From: an uncultured Alphaproteobacteria bacterium
GTDB lineage: Bacteria; Pseudomonadota; Alphaproteobacteria; RF32; CAG-239
Length of the DNA stretch: 32,021 nt
Assembly (NCBI GenBank): GCA_944393235.1
Contig: CALXZJ010000016.1
Span: 1 to 32,021, forward strand
Reading direction: 5' to 3'
Under the pieces are notes generated by a model. That model saw only the letters and a list, made by a program, of their open reading frames with translations. It did no database searches and was not told the DNA's origin. A program made the translations under genes and the position numbers. Within the stretch, counting starts at the first letter, position 1, and each line of letters opens with the position of its first letter. This document shows positions 4,649-20,791 of the stretch, piece by piece.

Positions 4649-5384
4649 CAGATTTATGCGCACCCATCTTCTTTTAGGCGATGACGGAATGGAAAATTTG
4701 AGCAAAGCAACGGTAATGATTGCCGGCCTCGGCGCCGTCGGCGGTTATGCTTTGGAAGCCGTTGCCCGAGCCGGGGTGGGGCGCTTGTTGCTGGTCGATT
4801 TTGACAGCTTTGATATCACCAACATCAACCGCCAGATTTTAGCCTTAAATTCCACCGTCGGCCTGAAAAAAACGGATGTCGCCGCCGCACGTGTGCGTGA
4901 AATCAACCCGTCGTGTCAGGTTGTCATAAAAGATATGTTCATCAATAAGGAAAGCTTGAACGAACTTTTAGCCGAAACGCCGGATTATGTGATTGATGCT
5001 ATTGATACGTTAGGTCCGAAATGTGATTTGATGGAGACCTTGCAAAACCGCAATATACCGTTTATATCTTCCATGGGCGCGGCCTTAAAGACCGATGTTT
5101 CTGCCGTAAGATTAGCCAAACTTTCGCAAACGCGAAACTGCTCTTTAGCAAAACACGTCCGTCAAAACTTGAAAAAACGCGGTGTAAAGATTGAAGATAT
5201 TGATTGTGTTTTTTCCGCCGAACAATGTAAAATAAAACATCAGGCAATCATTACCGGTCAAGACGGAAAGAAAAGCACACTCGGCTCGCTACCGACCATT
5301 ACCGCCATTTTTGGGTTGATGATGGCCAACGAAGTCATATTAAAACTGGCAAAAGGAAAACAAAATGCAACAGACAAATGCTGA
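4638..5384 (+). CDS. tcdA: tRNA threonylcarbamoyladenosine dehydratase (ThiF/E1-like)
   Basis: TcdA uses ATP to cyclise t6A37 of ANN-decoding tRNAs to ct6A. The sequence shows the E1/ThiF fold: nucleotide-binding GLGAVGGYALEAVARAGVG (about 31-49), the aspartate-rich LLLVDFDSFDITNINRQ that follows, and DYVIDAIDTLGPK near residue 115. RFMRTHLLLGDDGM at the N terminus and SSMGAALKTD with a C-terminal LGSLPTITAIFG are characteristic of the TcdA/YgdL branch rather than MoeB or ThiF. Length (248) is normal. The start codon overlaps the tatD end and the last 20 bases overlap hydF1, so translation is probably coupled. I see no obvious reason for a tRNA-modification gene to travel with hydrogenase maturases. 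Confidence 0.92.
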   Translation: MTDDRFMRTHLLLGDDGMENLSKATVMIAGLGAVGGYALEAVARAGVGRLLLVDFDSFDITNINRQILALNSTVGLKKTDVAAARVREINPSCQVVIKDMFINKESLNELLAETPDYVIDAIDTLGPKCDLMETLQNRNIPFISSMGAALKTDVSAVRLAKLSQTRNCSLAKHVRQNLKKRGVKIEDIDCVFSAEQCKIKHQAIITGQDGKKSTLGSLPTITAIFGLMMANEVILKLAKGKQNATDKC

Positions 5385-6606
5385 ACCAAAAATCAAAATT
5401 GTGCTGCTGGGGCGCAAAAATTCCGGCAAAAGCAGTTTTTTGAACTTGCTGTTGAATCATGACGCGTCAGCGACGGCAACGCCGTCTTTGGATGTTGTCG
5501 GGGTTGAGGAAGTCAGACAGGAAATGCACCCGTTCGGTTCGGTATTATGGTTTGACGTTCCGGGGTTTTCAAATGATGACACGTCCAATCAGTTAAAAAC
5601 AATCGCGCCGGTCTTACACAAGGCCGATGTGGCGGTGTTGGTTTGTGAAGGCGATGAAATCGGCACGATAGAGCGCGATATCATCACGCATCTGGAATTA
5701 AAACGAATACCGCGGATTGTGGTGTTCAACAAAGCCGACACGCACGCCATCGGCGATCCGGAAGGAGCGATTGTCGCCAATTCTCTGGATAAGTCGTCAA
5801 GAACTCAAGTTTTGACCGAACTCAAAGCGGCGCTTATCCGTGTTTGTCCGGAAGATTTGCTCGTTCCGCCGGTGTTCATCGGCGATTTGGCACCACGTGG
5901 CGGCACGGTTATTATGATGGTTCCCAATGATTATGATTACGTCAAAGGTCGTCTTCCTTTGCCGCAGGCGCAGGTGATTCGCGACTGCTTGGACCACAAT
6001 CAAATGATTATGACCGTCAAAGAAAGCGAATATGCTAAAGTGTTGCAAAATCTTAAAACCCCGCCGGATTTGGTGATTTGCGATTCTTCACTGGTTTCGC
6101 AAATGGTGGTGCAAACCCCAAACGGCATCAAATGCACGAGTTTTTCGGTTTTAACCGCCCGCATGCTGGGCGATTTGCAGCAAATGACCGACGGCGCCTT
6201 GGCCGTGTGGCGCTTAAAAGACGGCGACAAAGTTTTGATTGCCGAGCCGATTTTGCCCGAAAACCTGCAAGATGACATCAGTACGGTCAAAATTCCGCGC
6301 TGGCTGTCGGAAAAAACCGGAAAAGACTTGCTGATTGAACATATGTACGGTTCCAGTTGTCCGCTCGGATTGGAAAATTACAGTCTGGTTATCCACCGCG
6401 GGCTTCATCAGCAAAGCCGTAAAGACTTTTTGGAAGAACAGAGCCGCTGTCTGGCCGCCGGCGTCCCGCTGACCAATTACAGCGTCTGCGCCTCGGAATT
6501 GCATGGTTTGCTGGCCAAAATTTTGGAACCTTTTCCTAACACGTTGGAACGCTACCAAAGACGCCGCGAAGAGATTATTCAGACCGTGCCGAACAAAAAA
6601 TTTTAG
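5365..6606 (+). CDS. Degenerate HydF paralogue (GTPase retained, Fe-S ligands lost)
   Basis: This 413-residue protein aligns along its whole length with the following HydF, with no gap over the first 64 residues. The GTPase domain keeps the P-loop GRKNSGKS (16-23), DVPG (64-67) and NKAD (122-125). Two parts have decayed. The switch-I GTTTD (42-46) has become LDVVG, losing the threonines. In the C-terminal domain the CTHH cluster motif is replaced by PILPE (295-299), and CGGC by RGLH (345-348), so the cysteines that hold the [4Fe-4S] cluster are gone; the His of HCxxC is present (His344). The frame is intact and other blocks (DDIS.VKIP, AAGVPLTNY, HGLLAKILEPFP) are kept, so it is probably a functional protein, not a pseudogene. 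HydF is known to dimerise, so a heterodimer with HydF2 is a natural hypothesis. AAGGA inside the tcdA end serves as its ribosome-binding site. Confidence 0.85.
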   Translation: MQQTNAEPKIKIVLLGRKNSGKSSFLNLLLNHDASATATPSLDVVGVEEVRQEMHPFGSVLWFDVPGFSNDDTSNQLKTIAPVLHKADVAVLVCEGDEIGTIERDIITHLELKRIPRIVVFNKADTHAIGDPEGAIVANSLDKSSRTQVLTELKAALIRVCPEDLLVPPVFIGDLAPRGGTVIMMVPNDYDYVKGRLPLPQAQVIRDCLDHNQMIMTVKESEYAKVLQNLKTPPDLVICDSSLVSQMVVQTPNGIKCTSFSVLTARMLGDLQQMTDGALAVWRLKDGDKVLIAEPILPENLQDDISTVKIPRWLSEKTGKDLLIEHMYGSSCPLGLENYSLVIHRGLHQQSRKDFLEEQSRCLAAGVPLTNYSVCASELHGLLAKILEPFPNTLERYQRRREEIIQTVPNKKF

Positions 6607-6631: not shown

Positions 6632-7840
6632 ATGTTGCAAACACCTAAAGGATTACGGTTGCAGATTGCATTGTTAGGACGCGTCAATGCCGGAAAATCA
6701 AGTTTTTTGAATCTGGTAACCGGGCAAAACATCGCCATAACTTCTGATGTGCCGGGCACCACCACCGATGTCGTGGAAAAAGCTCAGGAATTGTTGCCGA
6801 TAGGCCCGGTATTGTGGCTGGATACTGCCGGTTTTGGCGACAAAACCAGGCTGTCTGCTTCAAGGCTTGAAAAAACACAGAAAGTCTTAAACCGTGCCGA
6901 TGTTGCCGTTTTGGTCTGCGAAGGGGATAAAATCGGCAAAATCGAACGCGATGTGATAGCTTTGGTTGAGCAAAAGAAAATTCCGTTGATTGTGGTCTTT
7001 AACAAAGCCGATTTGTATAAAATCAAAAATCCGGAAGGGGCGATAGTCGTCAATTCGCTTGATAAAGATTCCCGCAACCAAGTGTTAAACGAGCTCAAAG
7101 CCACACTCATCCGCTTGTGTCCGGATGAAATTTTCAATCCGCCACCGCTTTTGGCCGACTTGGCACCCGAGCACGGAACAATCGTGATGATTGTGCCGAT
7201 TGATTATGAAGCGCCGAAAGGGCGGATTATTTTGCCGCAGGTGCAAGCCATCCGCAACTGCCTTGACAACAATCAAATCATCACGGTTGTTAAAGAAAAC
7301 GATTATTTAAATGTGCTGCAAAACTTGAAAAAAGCACCGGATTTGGTGGTTTGCGACTCGCAGGTTGTCCGCCAGATGGTGGAACAAACGCCAAAAAATA
7401 TCAAGTGTACAACATTTTCAATATTAATGGCGCGCTTAAAAGGCGATTTGCCGAAGCTGGTAGAAGGGGCGGAGGCAATCTGGCGCTTGCAAGACGGCGA
7501 CAGGGTTTTGATTGCCGAATCATGCACGCACCATGCCATAGAAGATGATATCGGCCGGGTAAAAATTCCTAAGCTCCTGGCTGAAAAAACCGGCCGGCAA
7601 CTGATTGTTGACCACGTCGCCGGATGCGAATTTCCGGGCGGTTTGGCTAAATACGACTTGGTTATTCAATGCGGCGGCTGCATGCAAAACCGCAAAGAAA
7701 TTTTATCAAGAATCAATCAATGTGAAACCGCGGGCGTGCCGATTACCAATTACGGCATCTGTTTATCGGCACTAAACGGTGTGTTGGAAAGGGTGTTGGA
7801 ACCTTTTTCTCTTGAATATAAAAAGAAAGGAAGAAAATGA
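6632..7840 (+). CDS. hydF: [FeFe]-hydrogenase H-cluster maturation GTPase HydF
   Basis: HydF is the GTPase scaffold that receives the 2Fe precursor from HydE and HydG and delivers it to apo-HydA. All hallmarks are here in 402 residues: P-loop GRVNAGKS (16-23), switch-I GTTTD (42-46), DTAG (64-67), NKAD (124-127), a middle dimerisation domain, and a C-terminal cluster domain with ESCTHH (Cys298, His300) and CGGC (Cys347, Cys350), giving CxH-x46-xCxxC. The usual His before the first Cys of CGGC is Gln346; this fourth position is known to vary among HydFs. It lies 25 bases after the degenerate copy and its stop overlaps the hydG start (ATGA). This is presumably the catalytically competent copy. 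Confidence 0.96.
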   Translation: MLQTPKGLRLQIALLGRVNAGKSSFLNLVTGQNIAITSDVPGTTTDVVEKAQELLPIGPVLWLDTAGFGDKTRLSASRLEKTQKVLNRADVAVLVCEGDKIGKIERDVIALVEQKKIPLIVVFNKADLYKIKNPEGAIVVNSLDKDSRNQVLNELKATLIRLCPDEIFNPPPLLADLAPEHGTIVMIVPIDYEAPKGRIILPQVQAIRNCLDNNQIITVVKENDYLNVLQNLKKAPDLVVCDSQVVRQMVEQTPKNIKCTTFSILMARLKGDLPKLVEGAEAIWRLQDGDRVLIAESCTHHAIEDDIGRVKIPKLLAEKTGRQLIVDHVAGCEFPGGLAKYDLVIQCGGCMQNRKEILSRINQCETAGVPITNYGICLSALNGVLERVLEPFSLEYKKKGRK

Positions 7841-9264
7841 CGAGAGGACTACCTAAAATAGACGTTGAAGGTCTAAAATCATTCATTGATGAAGAAAAAA
7901 TTGAAAATCTTATTGCAAAAAAAGAAAACGATAAAGGAAAAATCAGGGAAATTATTGCCAAATCACTGGCTAAAAACCGCTTGGAACTTGAAGAAATGGC
8001 AGCGCTTTTAAACGCCGAAGATCCGGATTTGGTCGCCGAAATCAAAGAAGGCGCGCGCGAATTAAAACGCCGTATATATGGCAACCGCATAGTTTTATTT
8101 GCCCCGCTTTATGTCGGTAATGATTGTATCAACAACTGCTCCTATTGCGGTTTCAGAGCGTCAAATCTGGAACTTGTCCGCCGCACGTTGAGCTTAAAAG
8201 AGCTTGAAAAAGAAGTCCGCACGCTGGAAAGCCGCGGCCACAAACGTTTAATTTTGGTTTACGGCGAACATCCGCGCTACGATGCCGATTTTATTTATGA
8301 AACAACGCGCAAAGTTTATGAAACCAAAGAAGGAAAGGGGGAAATCCGTCGTGTCAATATCAACGCCGCGCCGTTTGACGTTGAAGGTTTCAAAAAAATC
8401 AAATCCGCCGGCATCGGCACGTTTCAGGTTTTTCAGGAAACATATCATCAAAAGACATACGCCTCGGTGCACCCGAGCGGCTTAAAGAGTAATTATTTGT
8501 GGCGTTTGTTTGCTTTTGACCGCGCCATGGAAGCCGGTATTGATGATGTCGGCATGGGCGCGCTGATTGGTCTTTATAATCACAAATTTGAAGCTTTGGC
8601 CATGTTGCAGCATACCATTCATTTGGAAGAAAAGTTCGGCGTCGGCCCGCACACGATTTCTTTTCCGCGCATAGAACCGGCCATCGGCACCAAATTTGCC
8701 GACCGTCCGCCGTATCAAGCCTCGGATGAAGATTTTATGAAGATGATTGCCGTCATCAGGCTTGCCGTGCCGTATACCGGTATGATTCTGACCGCACGCG
8801 AACCGGTTGCCCTACGCAACGAAGCCATATCATACGGCGTCAGCCAGATTGATGCCGGTTCGGATATCGGCGTCGGTGCTTACGCCAAAGAAGACGAAGT
8901 GGAAAGTGCCAAAAAAAGCCAGTTTGTTTTAAGCGACAACCGCAGCCTTGATGATGTTATCGGTCAACTGTGTGAACACGGGTTTTTACCGTCATTTTGC
9001 ACTGGTTGTTATCGTTTGGGAAGGACAGGGGAACATTTCATGGAATTTGCCATTCCGGGTTTTGTTAAAAAATTCTGTACGCCAAACGCCATATTGACCT
9101 TAACCGAATATTTGCTGGATTATGCGTCACCAGAAACTAAAGAAAAAGGGTTGAAACGGATTAAGGAAGAATTGGCAGACATTCCGCAAACAAATCCGAT
9201 AAAACAACAGCTGCTGGAAAAACTGTCCGAAGTGGAAAACGGCAAACGCGATTTGTTTTTTTAA
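7837..9264 (+). CDS. hydG: [FeFe]-hydrogenase radical SAM maturase HydG
   Basis: HydG is the radical SAM tyrosine lyase that makes the CO and CN ligands of the H-cluster via an Fe(CO)2(CN)-cysteine synthon. The radical SAM motif CX3CX2C is exact (Cys97, Cys101, Cys104 in NDCINNCSYCGF), and the C-terminal auxiliary cluster motif CX2CX22C is exact too (Cys388, Cys391, Cys414), which separates HydG from the related ThiH. The length of 475 is typical. The ATG overlaps the hydF stop by 4 bases and AAGGAAG lies just upstream. A bidirectional hairpin terminator begins about 30 bases after the stop, making hydG the last gene of the operon. Confidence 0.97.
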   Translation: MTRGLPKIDVEGLKSFIDEEKIENLIAKKENDKGKIREIIAKSLAKNRLELEEMAALLNAEDPDLVAEIKEGARELKRRIYGNRIVLFAPLYVGNDCINNCSYCGFRASNLELVRRTLSLKELEKEVRTLESRGHKRLILVYGEHPRYDADFIYETTRKVYETKEGKGEIRRVNINAAPFDVEGFKKIKSAGIGTFQVFQETYHQKTYASVHPSGLKSNYLWRLFAFDRAMEAGIDDVGMGALIGLYNHKFEALAMLQHTIHLEEKFGVGPHTISFPRIEPAIGTKFADRPPYQASDEDFMKMIAVIRLAVPYTGMILTAREPVALRNEAISYGVSQIDAGSDIGVGAYAKEDEVESAKKSQFVLSDNRSLDDVIGQLCEHGFLPSFCTGCYRLGRTGEHFMEFAIPGFVKKFCTPNAILTLTEYLLDYASPETKEKGLKRIKEELADIPQTNPIKQQLLEKLSEVENGKRDLFF

Positions 9265-9294
9265 AATCCATAAAAACGAAAAGAGCTTGCAGAC

Positions 9295-9320
9295 AAAAAG
9301 GCAAGGGCTCTTGCCTTTTT
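9295..9320 (+). terminator. Bidirectional intrinsic terminator after hydG
   Basis: AAAAAGGCAAG (9295-9305), a four-base loop and CTTGCCTTTTT (9310-9320) form an 11-bp stem with a T-run on either strand. It ends the hydG transcript and could also stop readthrough from the tRNA side. Confidence 0.8.
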
Positions 9321-9360
9321 GCTTAGCGCTCCTTTCGGTTCGAGTCCTGTACGCTTACAT

Positions 9361-9385
9361 AAAAAAAAGAGCGCTTGAAGCGCTC
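9361..9385 (-). terminator. Duplicated tRNA terminator hairpin without an intact tRNA (copy 1)
   Basis: GAGCGCTT/AAGCGCTC stem (9369-9385) with eight As on the plus strand (Ts on the minus strand). It is the duplicate of the functional tRNA-Ser terminator 210 bp away and here follows only a 19-base tRNA remnant. Confidence 0.6.
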
Positions 9386-9489
9386 CAAACTGGCGGAGAG
9401 TACAGGACTACGCCGTTTCACGGCTCTTTCTCTTTGGCATCTAAATTCGCCGCGGTCGCTGTCGCTTCCCTTGCTCATTAAGATGTTGC

Positions 9490-9619
9490 AAAGAGCTTGC
9501 AGACAAAAAGGCAAGGGGTCTTGCCTTTTTGCTTAGCGCTCCTTTCGGTTCGAGTCCTGTACGCTTACATAAAAAAAAGAGCGCTTGAAGCGCTCCAAAC
9601 TGGCGGAGAGTACAGGACT
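9490..9619. repeat. 130-bp direct repeat, copy 2 (overlaps the tRNA-Ser 3' end)
   Basis: The second copy, offset by exactly 210 bp, merges with the intact tRNA-Ser gene: its last 19 bases are the tRNA 3' end including CCA. A duplicated tRNA 3' end is what is left at attachment sites of integrated elements, but the repeat extends far outside the tRNA, so a local tandem duplication is equally possible. It contains another bidirectional hairpin at 9505-9530. Confidence 0.9.
9571..9595 (-). terminator. Intrinsic terminator of tRNA-Ser
   Basis: On the minus strand, directly after the tRNA, GAGCGCTT and AAGCGCTC (9595-9579) pair in a compact hairpin followed by eight Ts (9578-9571). Textbook intrinsic terminator placed five bases past the CCA end. 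Confidence 0.85.
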
Positions 9620-9689
9620 CGAACCTGTGCATCGCTTTAACACGATGACGGATTAGCAATCCGCTGCATTACCACTCTGCCAACTCTCC
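9601..9689 (-). tRNA. tRNA-Ser (anticodon GCU)
   Basis: The acceptor stem GGAGAGT (9689-9683) pairs perfectly with ACTCTCC (9611-9605), followed by discriminator G and an encoded CCA (9603-9601). The anticodon GCT is at 9657-9655 in the loop TTGCTAA, the T-arm is ACAGG-TTCGAGT-CCTGT, and a long variable arm (CATCG/CGATG stem) marks it as a class II tRNA, as expected for serine. It reads AGC and AGU codons. Confidence 0.97.
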
Positions 9690-9708
9690 GTGGTAAATAA
9701 CGTTGATA

Positions 9709-9737
9709 TATTTATATTATCTTTTCTTTGCCGTCAA
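9709..9737 (-). promoter_or_regulatory. Candidate promoter of tRNA-Ser
   Basis: TTGACG (9737-9732) is followed by an AT-rich -10 region, TATAAA (9716-9711) at 15 bp or TAAATA (9714-9709) at 17 bp. The -10 lies about 20 bases before the mature tRNA 5' end. The -35 box overlaps the stop codon of the NUDIX gene. Confidence 0.5.
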
Positions 9738-18021: not shown

Positions 18022-19746
18022 ATGTCGTACGATTTTTTGTTTCAAAAAGCCAATCAATTATATACAGAAGGCGCGTTAAACCAAGCCGAACAACTTTATC
18101 GGACAATATTGGAAAGCATGCCTGAAAACCCTGATGTTTTAAATATGCTTGGACTCATTGCCGAAGCCAAAGGCCTGCCAAATGAAGCGGTTGACTATTT
18201 TTACAAAGCTCTAAAATCAGCGCCAAACCATTTGCCGATTTGTTTTAATCTGGCGGTTTCTCTGGCTTCTGCCGAACATTTGCGCGAAGCTGTCGACGCA
18301 TATCAAAAAGTTTTAGCCATAAAACCGGATCTCAAAGAAGCGCACAATAACTTAGGCGGTTTGTATGAAAGACTCGGCAAGACGGCAAAAGCGCGTTCAG
18401 AATACCAAGAAGCGCTGAATATTAATAAAAATTATCTGGAAGCCGCTGTTAATCTTGCTGCGATTGATCAAGACAAAAACCAACTAACCCGATTGGCACA
18501 AGACAACCCTCAGACAGCCCTGCCCTTATATTACCTTGCCAAACTTGAGTTGAAAAACCAAAATCCGGAATCGGCTCTTCGTCACATTAAAGAAGCTCTT
18601 TCTAAAACAGACGCATCTGCTGAAATTTTCCTTTTAGCCGGCGAAATTTTTCTGCAAACCGGCGACGAAGTTTCCGCCGCCGAAGCTTTTCGCCGTACGC
18701 TAAAATTTAATCCAAAATCAGTTCCGGCGCTCATCAACCTCGGCGTTTATGAAAACAACGAAAATTTGCTGAAAGAAGCCTTAAATATTGAGCCGGACAA
18801 TGCCGAAGCCCACGCCAACTATGCCAACCTGCTATATAAACAAAAACGCCCTTTGGAAGCATTGGAAGAATACCGCAAAGCCGTCGTCCTAAAACCTGAT
18901 TTGCCGGAACTGTCCAACAACTTGGGACTCATCTTAAAAGACATTGGTGAATATGAACAAGCTCTGGATTTGTTTTTAGACGCTTTTATGAAAAACAAAC
19001 AAACTGTTGATTATTCGATAAATCTGGCAGAAACGCTCGTATTGTTCCATCAACAATCTCCCGAGCGCGCAGCACAAATAGCGCAAATCTGGGCAAATGC
19101 CGCACCGGACAATCCCTTTGCCGCACACACGCTTAATGCTTTTCGAAAATCATCTACTGCCGAAGTCGATAAAAAATATGCAAAAGCTCTGTTTGATGCG
19201 TTTGCGTCGTCTTATGACAAAACCATGGATAACATCAAATATAATGTTATAAATAAAATCAAAGACTTAAAAATTCATCTTCAAGGGAATATACTTGATT
19301 TGGGTTGCGGAACAGGTATTGCCGGAAAAACTTTTTACAATAACTTAACTGTTTTTACCGGTATAGACATTTCACGAAAAATGCTTGATATTGCTCATTC
19401 AACCGGTGCATATAAATATTTATATCAGCAAGATATAACGGAATACTTGCAAGAAAACAGCTTAAAGTACGACTTTATTCTAGCTCTAGATGTTGTTGAT
19501 TATATTGAAAATTTTGAAAAAATTGCAAAGCTCGCAAAATGCACGCCGTTTCTTTTTACGATTGAAAACGCCGATAGCAGCGTCAAAACTTTAACCTTAA
19601 TGCCAAACGGACGATATAAACATAATCCGACTTATATCGAAAATATATTGAAGGCTGCCGGCTATCACGACATAAAAAAATACGAGTTGACATTGCGTCA
19701 GGAAAACACTCAAGACGTTGCCGGAACACTTTTCTATGCTATTTAA
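18022..19746 (+). CDS. TPR-repeat protein with C-terminal SAM-dependent methyltransferase domain
   Basis: Of 574 residues, about the first 390 are tetratricopeptide repeats: a run such as LNQAEQLYRTILESMPENPD, LPNEAVDYFYKALKSAPNHL, LREAVDAYQKVLAIKPDLKE and KTAKARSEYQEALNIN recurs with 34-residue spacing and a break around 155-170. Near residue 385 comes the linker KKYAKALFDAFASSYDKTM, then a class I methyltransferase with motif I ILDLGCGTGIAGK (about 425-437), an acidic GIDISRKML and YDFILALDVVDYIENF. Such fusions are common in Alphaproteobacteria; the substrate is unknown. No signal peptide is present, so it is cytoplasmic. GAGGA precedes the ATG. Its stop region overlaps the hydE stop by 4 bases on the opposite strand, with no terminator between. 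Confidence 0.9.
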   Translation: MSYDFLFQKANQLYTEGALNQAEQLYRTILESMPENPDVLNMLGLIAEAKGLPNEAVDYFYKALKSAPNHLPICFNLAVSLASAEHLREAVDAYQKVLAIKPDLKEAHNNLGGLYERLGKTAKARSEYQEALNINKNYLEAAVNLAAIDQDKNQLTRLAQDNPQTALPLYYLAKLELKNQNPESALRHIKEALSKTDASAEIFLLAGEIFLQTGDEVSAAEAFRRTLKFNPKSVPALINLGVYENNENLLKEALNIEPDNAEAHANYANLLYKQKRPLEALEEYRKAVVLKPDLPELSNNLGLILKDIGEYEQALDLFLDAFMKNKQTVDYSINLAETLVLFHQQSPERAAQIAQIWANAAPDNPFAAHTLNAFRKSSTAEVDKKYAKALFDAFASSYDKTMDNIKYNVINKIKDLKIHLQGNILDLGCGTGIAGKTFYNNLTVFTGIDISRKMLDIAHSTGAYKYLYQQDITEYLQENSLKYDFILALDVVDYIENFEKIAKLAKCTPFLFTIENADSSVKTLTLMPNGRYKHNPTYIENILKAAGYHDIKKYELTLRQENTQDVAGTLFYAI

Positions 19747-20780
19747 ATATGTTTAACTTTTTGATGAAAACCTTTATCTGTCGCAACATACCGACCGATA
19801 GCCGCAATTTTGGCGCGCAATTGAGCCAATGTATTATCTGCGGCACAGTTGGTGGCAGATTTTCCGGGGTACAATTCATAGTATTTTCGACATTCATTTA
19901 AGGTAACATTAGGCATAATAACGTTGGCGCCGGCTTGTAAAGCCCTTATCTGTCCGTTTGGCGCCAAAGTCTCCATGGCTGTTGTCGCCGGAATATTAAT
20001 ATCCGGCAACAAAAGTCTGGTTAACGCCATAACTTTCAATGCAAGGTCAAAATTTCCTTTTTCGGCATTGCCCAACGGCGTATCCGGATGAGGAATAAAC
20101 GGACCGATACCGATCATATCTGCTTTAATTTGCTTAAAAAATAAAATATCGTCTGCCAAACTTTCAAGAGTTTGCCCCGGCAGCCCCACCAAGCACCCTG
20201 AACCGACTTCCATACCTGAACGGGAAATATCATCCAAACACTTCCGCCGCCGCGCCCAACTCATACCGGGATCATGACGTTCGTAAAGAATTTTGTCAGT
20301 CGTTTCTATCCGAAGCAAAAATCGGTCGCATCCGGCATCTTTATAGGCTTGATATTCTTCAGCCGATTTTTCACCAACACTTAAGGTTAGTGCCGCATCT
20401 AAAGTTTTAATCCGGCGGATAAGTGCACACATTTTCTGACAATCAAACCACATATCTTCACCCGATTGCAACACAATTGTCTTCAATCCCATTTGTGTCA
20501 CGGCATATTCCGCCAACTTAAAAATGGCATCTTCATCCAACCGATAACGATGAATTTTGACATTATCGCGCCTCAAACCGCAATAGCAGCAATTATTTTT
20601 GCAAATATTAGAAAACTCAATCAGCCCGCGCAAATGAATTCCGTCACCGACATATTTCTGTCGCACCCGATCCGCGGCAGCACAAATTTCCGGCAAAAGA
20701 GAGACTTCAGAAAGAAGGCAAATAAGCTCATCTCGGCTTAAAACATGCTTATCTTCAGCCTTTTCAATTAAAGAAAGCAT
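19743..20780 (-). CDS. hydE: [FeFe]-hydrogenase radical SAM maturase HydE
   Basis: HydE is the radical SAM enzyme that processes the HydG-derived Fe(CO)2(CN)-cysteine synthon on the way to the H-cluster dithiomethylamine bridge. The radical SAM CX3CX2C is exact (Cys60, Cys64, Cys67 in SNICKNNCCYCGLRRDN), and MGLKTIVLQSGED, CLVGLPGQTLESL, IGPFIPHPDTPL and the late RKYYELYPGK are HydE blocks that separate it from BioB and PylB. A second C-terminal CX7CX2C cluster motif, known in some HydEs and non-essential, is absent. I take the ATG at 20780 with AAAGG nine bases upstream rather than the in-frame GTG at 20789. It follows lolD after 11 bases and lies about 10.5 kb from hydG. Confidence 0.95.
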   Translation of the reverse strand: MLSLIEKAEDKHVLSRDELICLLSEVSLLPEICAAADRVRQKYVGDGIHLRGLIEFSNICKNNCCYCGLRRDNVKIHRYRLDEDAIFKLAEYAVTQMGLKTIVLQSGEDMWFDCQKMCALIRRIKTLDAALTLSVGEKSAEEYQAYKDAGCDRFLLRIETTDKILYERHDPGMSWARRRKCLDDISRSGMEVGSGCLVGLPGQTLESLADDILFFKQIKADMIGIGPFIPHPDTPLGNAEKGNFDLALKVMALTRLLLPDINIPATTAMETLAPNGQIRALQAGANVIMPNVTLNECRKYYELYPGKSATNCAADNTLAQLRAKIAAIGRYVATDKGFHQKVKHI

Positions 20781-20791
20781 AAAAAACACCT

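Follow-up and report, generated by a model that had tools for sequence, protein, structure and literature searches.

Downstream of the tRNA-Ser(GCU) gene of an uncultured alphaproteobacterium two copies stand in tandem, one complete and one truncated, of what we regard as a noncoding integrative cassette, non-autonomous and about 210 bp long. Its insertion point would be the T-loop, between positions 57 and 58 of the tRNA, and its attachment site, folded in single-stranded DNA, would be exchanged in trans. We give this reading of the feature a probability of roughly 0.6. The insertion of noncoding cassettes at tRNA T-loops is well supported; the enzyme and the mechanism of insertion we infer. 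The window, the whole stretch of DNA that was analysed, is an entire contig of 32,021 nucleotides, and its host group is CAG-239/RF32 in GTDB. The genomes examined closely are fragmented MAGs.

The initial annotation described a 130-bp direct repeat with one differing base, which was borne out by a repeat search of the window and by base-by-base comparison. The copies, 9280-9409 and 9490-9619, have a spacing of 210, and their sole mismatch is C/G at 9308/9518. The 19-mer AGTCCTGTACTCTCCGCCA occurs exactly on the minus strand at the 3' end of the tRNA gene and again in the displaced copy, and had no further match at up to three mismatches in the whole window. In canonical numbering the displaced 19 nt are A58-A76 of tRNA-Ser(GCU), and because the copy begins at A58 it starts in the T-loop. 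The earlier description of a first copy carrying the last 19 bases of the tRNA and stopping abruptly was therefore exact, with the stop at 57/58. Each copy of the repeat also holds an inverted T-arm, which was absent from that description.

Read on the minus strand, the tRNA gene is followed by a terminator, the inverted T-arm, hairpin A, hairpin B, a small hairpin and the 19-nt copy, which complete one full cassette unit of 210 bp (Table 1). Distal to 9391 a second unit runs through terminator, inverted T-arm and hairpin A and ends at 9280; the neighbouring gene has its stop codon 15 bases away. No ORF of at least 90 aa was found in 9265-9733. Elsewhere in the window two adjoining, similar GTPase ORFs (5365-6606 and 6632-7840) precede a radical-SAM ORF (7837-9264), and another radical-SAM ORF (19743-20789) lies 10 kb away; these resemble the hydrogenase maturation genes, in order HydF (twice), HydG and HydE.

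Table 1. Features of the repeat region at the tRNA-Ser(GCU) gene, in window coordinates
Feature	Position	Strand	Basis
tRNA-Ser(GCU), intact, CCA encoded; 3' end A58-A76 at 9601-9619	9601..9689	-	ARAGORN; Rfam RF00005
Terminator 1 (GGAGCGCTTCAAGCGCTC + T8), start of cassette unit 1	9571..9596	-	direct reading
Inverted T-arm of unit 1 (reverse complement of tRNA-Ser T-arm)	9547..9562	+	inverted-repeat pair
Hairpin A of unit 1: covarying 3-bp outer stem, conserved internal loop TTGCAGA/CTTAGC, A5/T5 inner stem	9494..9540	+	alignment/covariation; R1
Hairpin B of unit 1: long covarying stem, conserved loop ATTCGCCGCGGTCGCTGTCGCTTCCCTTGCTCATT	9430..9495	+	alignment/covariation; R1
Small hairpin GCCGT-TTC-ACGGC, between body and displaced tRNA end	9412..9424	+	direct reading; predicted fold
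Displaced 19-nt copy of tRNA-Ser 3' end (A58-A76)	9391..9409	-	direct reading; exact match
Terminator of truncated distal unit 2, identical to terminator 1	9361..9386	-	direct reading
Inverted T-arm of unit 2	9337..9352	+	inverted-repeat pair
Hairpin A of truncated unit 2 (unit ends at 9280, within B)	9284..9330	+	repeat search; weak partial R1 match 9247-9332

The cassette body, here called BA, consists of the two covarying hairpins B and A, and the general cassette order is terminator, inverted T-arm, BA and 19-nt tRNA end. A covariance model, R1, was built from 12 aligned instances of the core, and it matched the body of unit 1 at 9430-9542 with 127.7 bits. In the 12-instance alignment 94.0% of cells were paired, against 79.3% after shuffling and at most 50.0% in slid controls, and 21 of the 31 pairs showed compensatory double changes; the structure was drawn from the same alignment that was used to score covariation, which favours the structure. 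On one strand G-U cells outnumber A-C cells by 139 to 32, and pair 8-79 alone contributes 79 of the G-U cells. A clean call of the functional strand was dropped, since the excess comes mainly from this one pair. BA corresponds to no family in Rfam 15, in which only the tRNA scored above the gathering threshold.

Matches to R1 were found in all three genomes of the genus, in 103 of 126 genomes of the family (E <= 0.01; at most 28 matches per genome) and in 125 of 153 genomes of the order (E <= 1e-4), with all 17 sampled genera represented and most genomes of genus g4 giving no BA match. Among the matches listed for a pattern of the A hairpin, 78 of 80 bear proteobacterial names, from uncultured gut Alphaproteobacteria including Azospirillum sp. 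CAG:239, and these named records are mostly MAGs. The pattern was also seen in a Sulfurimonas MAG contig (L158) and in Ruminococcus albus (L191), which may be chance.

A search of the window's own genome with 9265-9700 as query, of the kind first proposed for the spacer between the repeat copies, found the spacer on other contigs, mostly at contig ends, including behind tRNA-Val(CAC) and tRNA-Arg(CCG). Two other genomes of the genus carry BA at tRNA-Ser, tRNA-Gly(CCC), tRNA-Ala(CGC), tRNA-Pro(GGG) and tRNA-Phe. The initial annotation held that recurrence in many places unconnected to tRNA-Ser would speak against an attachment site; the unit does recur in this literal sense, but most of its other sites are again tRNA genes, where the tRNA end is that of the local gene. 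For a wider view, 103 BA rows were kept from 114 R1 matches in 84 loci after short matches and three repeated loci were set aside. In this collection of best matches and loci of our own choice, which is not a random sample, 53 rows are found within 320 nt on the 3' side of a tRNA, 6 on the 5' side of one, and 44 are without a tRNA. None of the 26 sampled rows from genus g6 is within 320 nt of a tRNA, and as all 26 are among the 44 tRNA-less rows, 59 of the 77 rows from outside g6 lie beside a tRNA, 53 of them downstream. BA occurred at 19 different tRNA types and matched the respective tRNA ends where these were read. Downstream of tRNAs hairpin A is proximal in 29 rows and hairpin B in 24, and the use of either orientation argues against a read-through RNA product.

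Some copies follow other patterns. In genomes G047 and G021 of genus g6, about 20 similar BA copies (L079-L097) lie in intergenic mosaics without a nearby tRNA and adjoin other palindromes rich in CTAAG/CTTAG. The outer inverted arms of some of these copies are variable, TAAAAACTGCG/CGCAGTTTTTA versus TAAAAAACGCG/CGCGTTTTTTA. The intergenic copies of g6 may occupy a second, non-tRNA niche. At the tRNA-Ala(CGC) of G001 (L016:1371-1768) BA lies 5' of the tRNA as a mirror image of the T-loop insertions, and the tandem units each carry about the first 20 nt of this tRNA, ending in the D-loop.

An unbiased census was made of the tRNA genes of G000, G002 and G081, in which all tRNAs were listed by Rfam, 115 genes were identified by ARAGORN and the downstream flanks were analysed. 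An exact copy of the tRNA's own 3' end, at least 12 nt long and at most 600 nt downstream, was found for 24 of the 115 tRNAs (10 in G081, 7 in G002 and 7 in G000); one of them, tRNA-Val(GAC) in G000, shares the copy of the adjoining tRNA-Val(CAC). A decoy test with the ends of other tRNAs gave 1 in 10,846. The 30 exact copies measured 13 (1), 15 (2), 16 (6), 17 (4), 18 (1), 19 (15) and 21 (1) nt. A rigid 19-nt rule was dropped, as copies of 13-18 nt also occur; B-proximal copies at Arg, Pro and Ser-CGA tRNAs share only 14-17 nt. Contig ends lie within 350 nt on the 3' side of 22 of the 115 tRNAs versus the 5' side of 2, an excess expected because repeats break assembly, and flanks that run off a contig hide further displaced copies. 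From the tRNA, or the previous copy, to the next copy the cassettes span 128-349 nt, most of them 130-250 nt, and are noncoding; a single span of 763 nt covers degraded copies.

At least four further body families, told apart by eye, occupy the same relative site of other tRNAs. Family C (GTTYGACTAC...AGGCG...CGCCGGT) occurs at Pro, Gly, Trp, Ser, Met, Arg and Lys tRNAs, and an alignment of 16 rows has 9 consensus pairs, 5 with double changes. By the same visual distinction, family D is found at Glu tRNAs, family E at Asn, Glu, Thr and Arg tRNAs, and family G at Glu, with a displaced end of only about CACCA. Family F, of about 245 nt with 16-nt tRNA-end copies, was located at tRNA-Ala in G002:C2 (GGC, in tandem) and in G000:C7 and C57. 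The loci with bodies C to F (19 and 2 loci) had no Rfam match except tRNA. In the tRNA-Ser(GGA) array of G002 (L355:633-902, plus strand) copies of the tRNA 3' end flank an ORF of 89 aa, and this segment of the array may therefore contain a gene; the ORF had no Pfam match and no phage match.

Comparison of relatives indicates that the sites change their contents. At the tRNA-Glu(UUC) locus of genus g7 the upstream flank is conserved among the compared genomes. In G063 the tRNA is followed by a terminator, a BA cassette, AATCCCGTTGGGATCACCA, a second terminator and the flank; G008 has a family D cassette instead, with tRNA, 19 nt, second terminator and flank as in G063; and G086 and G078 have the tRNA without a cassette. 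At tRNA-Glu(CTC) of G002, D and E stand one behind the other, and after the last 19 nt comes ATACAAACGGCAGG, which resembles the TTTCAAACGGCAGG that follows the bare tRNA in G086. Within the genus of the window, G000 has BA cassettes in tandem at tRNA-Val(CAC), where G001 has none. Such swapped and empty sites imply that cassettes come and go at a fixed junction; the direction of change at these tRNA sites, gain or loss, we infer. At the window's own tRNA the copy number also differs among relatives, as the first description anticipated, with G001 carrying two identical 209-bp units and a degraded third. At other tRNAs, empty and differently occupied sites occur.

The two G001 units show 0 differences in 209, and G000 and G001 units are identical at 196 of 210 positions; judged from these sequences, cassette units are homogenised within a genome. 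In a poorly resolved BA tree (103 rows, 115 columns) the tRNA-Arg(CCG) rows, which come from five genera, group in a single clade. The tree requires 27 changes of tRNA target, against 41.9 on average, and never fewer than 37, over 200 shuffles, and cassettes therefore mostly keep their tRNA and sometimes switch.

Every BA cassette that was read closely has an inverted, often imperfect, copy of the T-arm after the terminator, and in family C the inverted T-arm precedes a short stretch that repeats about positions 46-57 in direct orientation. At loci with a 3' copy, the cassette's own tRNA was the best T-arm fit over all decoys in 18 of 25 cases and in the top 5% in 22 of 25; at loci without a 3' copy, some of them degraded or at contig ends, the own tRNA was best in 17 of 82. 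The predicted DNA fold of the unit has z = -4.5 and forms the stem between inverted T-arm and T-arm. Within one strand the inverted T-arm is thus predicted to pair with the 19-nt end and to close a stem around the terminator, and from this pairing we propose a folded att site, by analogy with attC and CTX phage.

On our preferred reading, the cassettes are non-autonomous mini-elements that were integrated at tRNA T-loops, probably by an enzyme working in trans on an att site folded from single-stranded DNA. Because each cassette carries the final 19 nt of its tRNA, the gene remains whole, and the displaced 19 nt come to lie at the far end. In a single-stranded cassette the inverted T-arm would pair with this end; several families would add a pairing with the short copy of positions 46-57. 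Such pairing would rebuild a double-stranded tRNA target from which the body bulges out at 57/58. A recombinase in trans, either host XerC/XerD or the enzyme of another element, might then exchange the folded site with the tRNA gene; tandem units could arise from repeated insertion or unequal recombination, followed by homogenisation. The presence of the same body at 19 tRNA types, hard for an ordinary integrase, counts against this model, as do the copies of 13-18 nt, the g6 copies away from tRNAs, the six 5' copies and the fact that all genomes are MAGs.

G002 and G021 each encode two PF00589 tyrosine recombinases, best named XerD and XerC (NCBIfam; partial sequence, scores below the curated cut-offs), and other genomes have more than two PF00589 proteins. 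A dedicated tyrosine integrase was rejected on the grounds of G002 and G021. The Y1 transposase (PF01797) occurs in 5 of 16 genomes and is absent from 11, including element-rich G021, G047 and G054 and also G081; its presence does not track the element, and an origin from RAYT/REP was discarded. The reverse transcriptase RVT_1 was found in 5 of 12 genomes, with no match in the other 7 (G000, G001, G002, G021, G047, G063 and G008). These searches of the genome assemblies for tyrosine recombinases, Y1 transposase and reverse transcriptase tied no recombinase to the cassettes, and the partner enzyme may be on a plasmid or phage absent from the assemblies. A phage origin was also set aside: the body pattern gave one contig in IMG/VR (L219), taken from its ORF content by eye as host DNA beside a Mu-like prophage.

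Most alternatives to the folded att site invoke another mechanism for the same finding, cassettes inserted at T-loops. Casposons target tRNA genes and duplicate the site. A Cas1- or casposase-like integrase might likewise make the 19 nt at insertion by a staggered cut, at A58 on one strand and behind CCA on the other, with arrays growing CRISPR-like and the tRNA serving as leader. One body family at many tRNAs, each with its own 3' end where read, the commonest copy length of exactly 19 nt and the junction shared by two different cassettes all fit such a duplication. We nevertheless consider it unlikely, as by itself it does not explain an inverted T-arm matching the local tRNA, BA mostly keeps its target across genera, and copies of 14-17 nt occur. 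Somewhat less credible is descent without mobility, in which tRNA 3' untranslated regions contain structured RNA elements, such as ones for processing or regulation, that spread by local tandem duplication and vertical descent. The compensatory changes in BA, the G-U excess on one strand (largely from pair 8-79) and the clades keeping one tRNA across genera would all agree with such elements, but BA stands in both orientations to the tRNA, unrelated bodies share one junction with a recurring 19-nt boundary, and relatives lack a cassette at the same tRNA.

The initial annotation offered two further readings, a collapsed integrated element and a simple tandem duplication. Tandem duplication accounts for the second unit in the window and fails for the same body at other tRNAs. 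Displaced tRNA 3' ends do mark integrated islands, as set out in PMC4383910, and the attachment-site idea stands in so far as the feature is a product of integration at a tRNA 3' end; the 210-bp unit is itself the element. That it is the scar of a collapsed large island or prophage is very improbable, as its conserved, covarying body recurs order-wide, different tiny cassettes replace each other at one locus, and the regions behind tRNAs in G081 and G002, examined as 20 stretches 5-20 kb long, contained no distal fragment beyond 0.8 kb save isolated 14-mers. We see hardly any chance for SINE-like, RNA-mediated insertion by a reverse transcriptase with the tRNA 3' end as primer or template. The elements are structured and the copied A58-CCA stretch resembles the part of a tRNA that serves as retroviral primer, yet RVT_1 was unmatched in 7 of 12 genomes and a reverse transcriptase would be needed in trans from plasmids or phages.

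The preferred reading, a cassette with a folded att site, has parallels among known systems. As in the tRNA and tmRNA islands of PMC4383910, an intact tRNA stands at one end and a displaced 3' fragment in the same orientation at the other, the crossover is in the T-loop and tandem arrays occur occasionally; in the cassettes, too, the tRNA is restored by the element and the 3' fragment lies downstream in the same orientation. The islands described there have 2-200 kb and an integrase, whereas the cassettes have 0.13-0.25 kb, no integrase gene and as a rule no genes at all; one body family serves many isoacceptors, and the inverted T-arm is inside the element. Islander, according to the same text, demands at least 2 kb and an integrase, and would thus discard elements like these, which fall short in length and contain no integrase ORF. 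Integron cassettes and attC sites (PMC4792948) resemble them in outline, with a tandem of small cassettes behind a fixed site, different cassettes at one site and an imperfect inverted repeat, which in the cassettes described here is predicted to fold. The fixed site here is a tRNA T-loop, the cassettes are noncoding save for the 89-aa exception, G002 and G021 have no integron integrase (best names XerC/XerD, from partial sequence), and no attC consensus was seen.

CTX-phi uses a folded single-stranded att site with host XerC/XerD, and by analogy inverted att-core copies in one strand of a cassette could fold into a recombination site for host enzymes. Unlike in CTX-phi, the target is not dif-like, phage genes are absent and the fold is a predicted one. 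REP/BIME elements, which are moved by RAYT, are likewise dispersed, short, palindromic and intergenic, but the cassettes have a fixed insertion at tRNA T-loops and the Y1 transposase is absent from 11 of 16 genomes.

A more far-reaching interpretation would see in these loci a categorically new, order-wide 'tRNA integron', in which T-loops are landing sites for many structured cassette families, noncoding and rarely coding. The folded strand would rebuild the T-arm as a double-stranded site for recombination, a general host recombinase such as XerC/XerD would insert, stack and exchange cassettes at many isoacceptors, and the cassettes would supply the tRNA 3' end and a terminator; this we regard as doubtful, though conceivable.

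Literature searches, including CAG-239 together with tRNA, found no publication describing such cassettes, and this large set at the tRNA genes of uncultured gut bacteria is apparently undescribed. The repeats also account for contig breaks just downstream of tRNA genes in these MAG assemblies. The finding raises the question of which enzyme moves a noncoding cassette among many tRNA genes, and whether it acts on a folded single-stranded att site. If our reading is true, the cassettes would form a class of mobile elements that, with about 0.2 kb and no genes, marks the lower limit of size, leaves unbroken the essential tRNA genes in which it resides and escapes published tRNA-island searches because their filters are designed to remove it; such cassettes would shape roughly one in five tRNA 3' ends of the three surveyed genomes.
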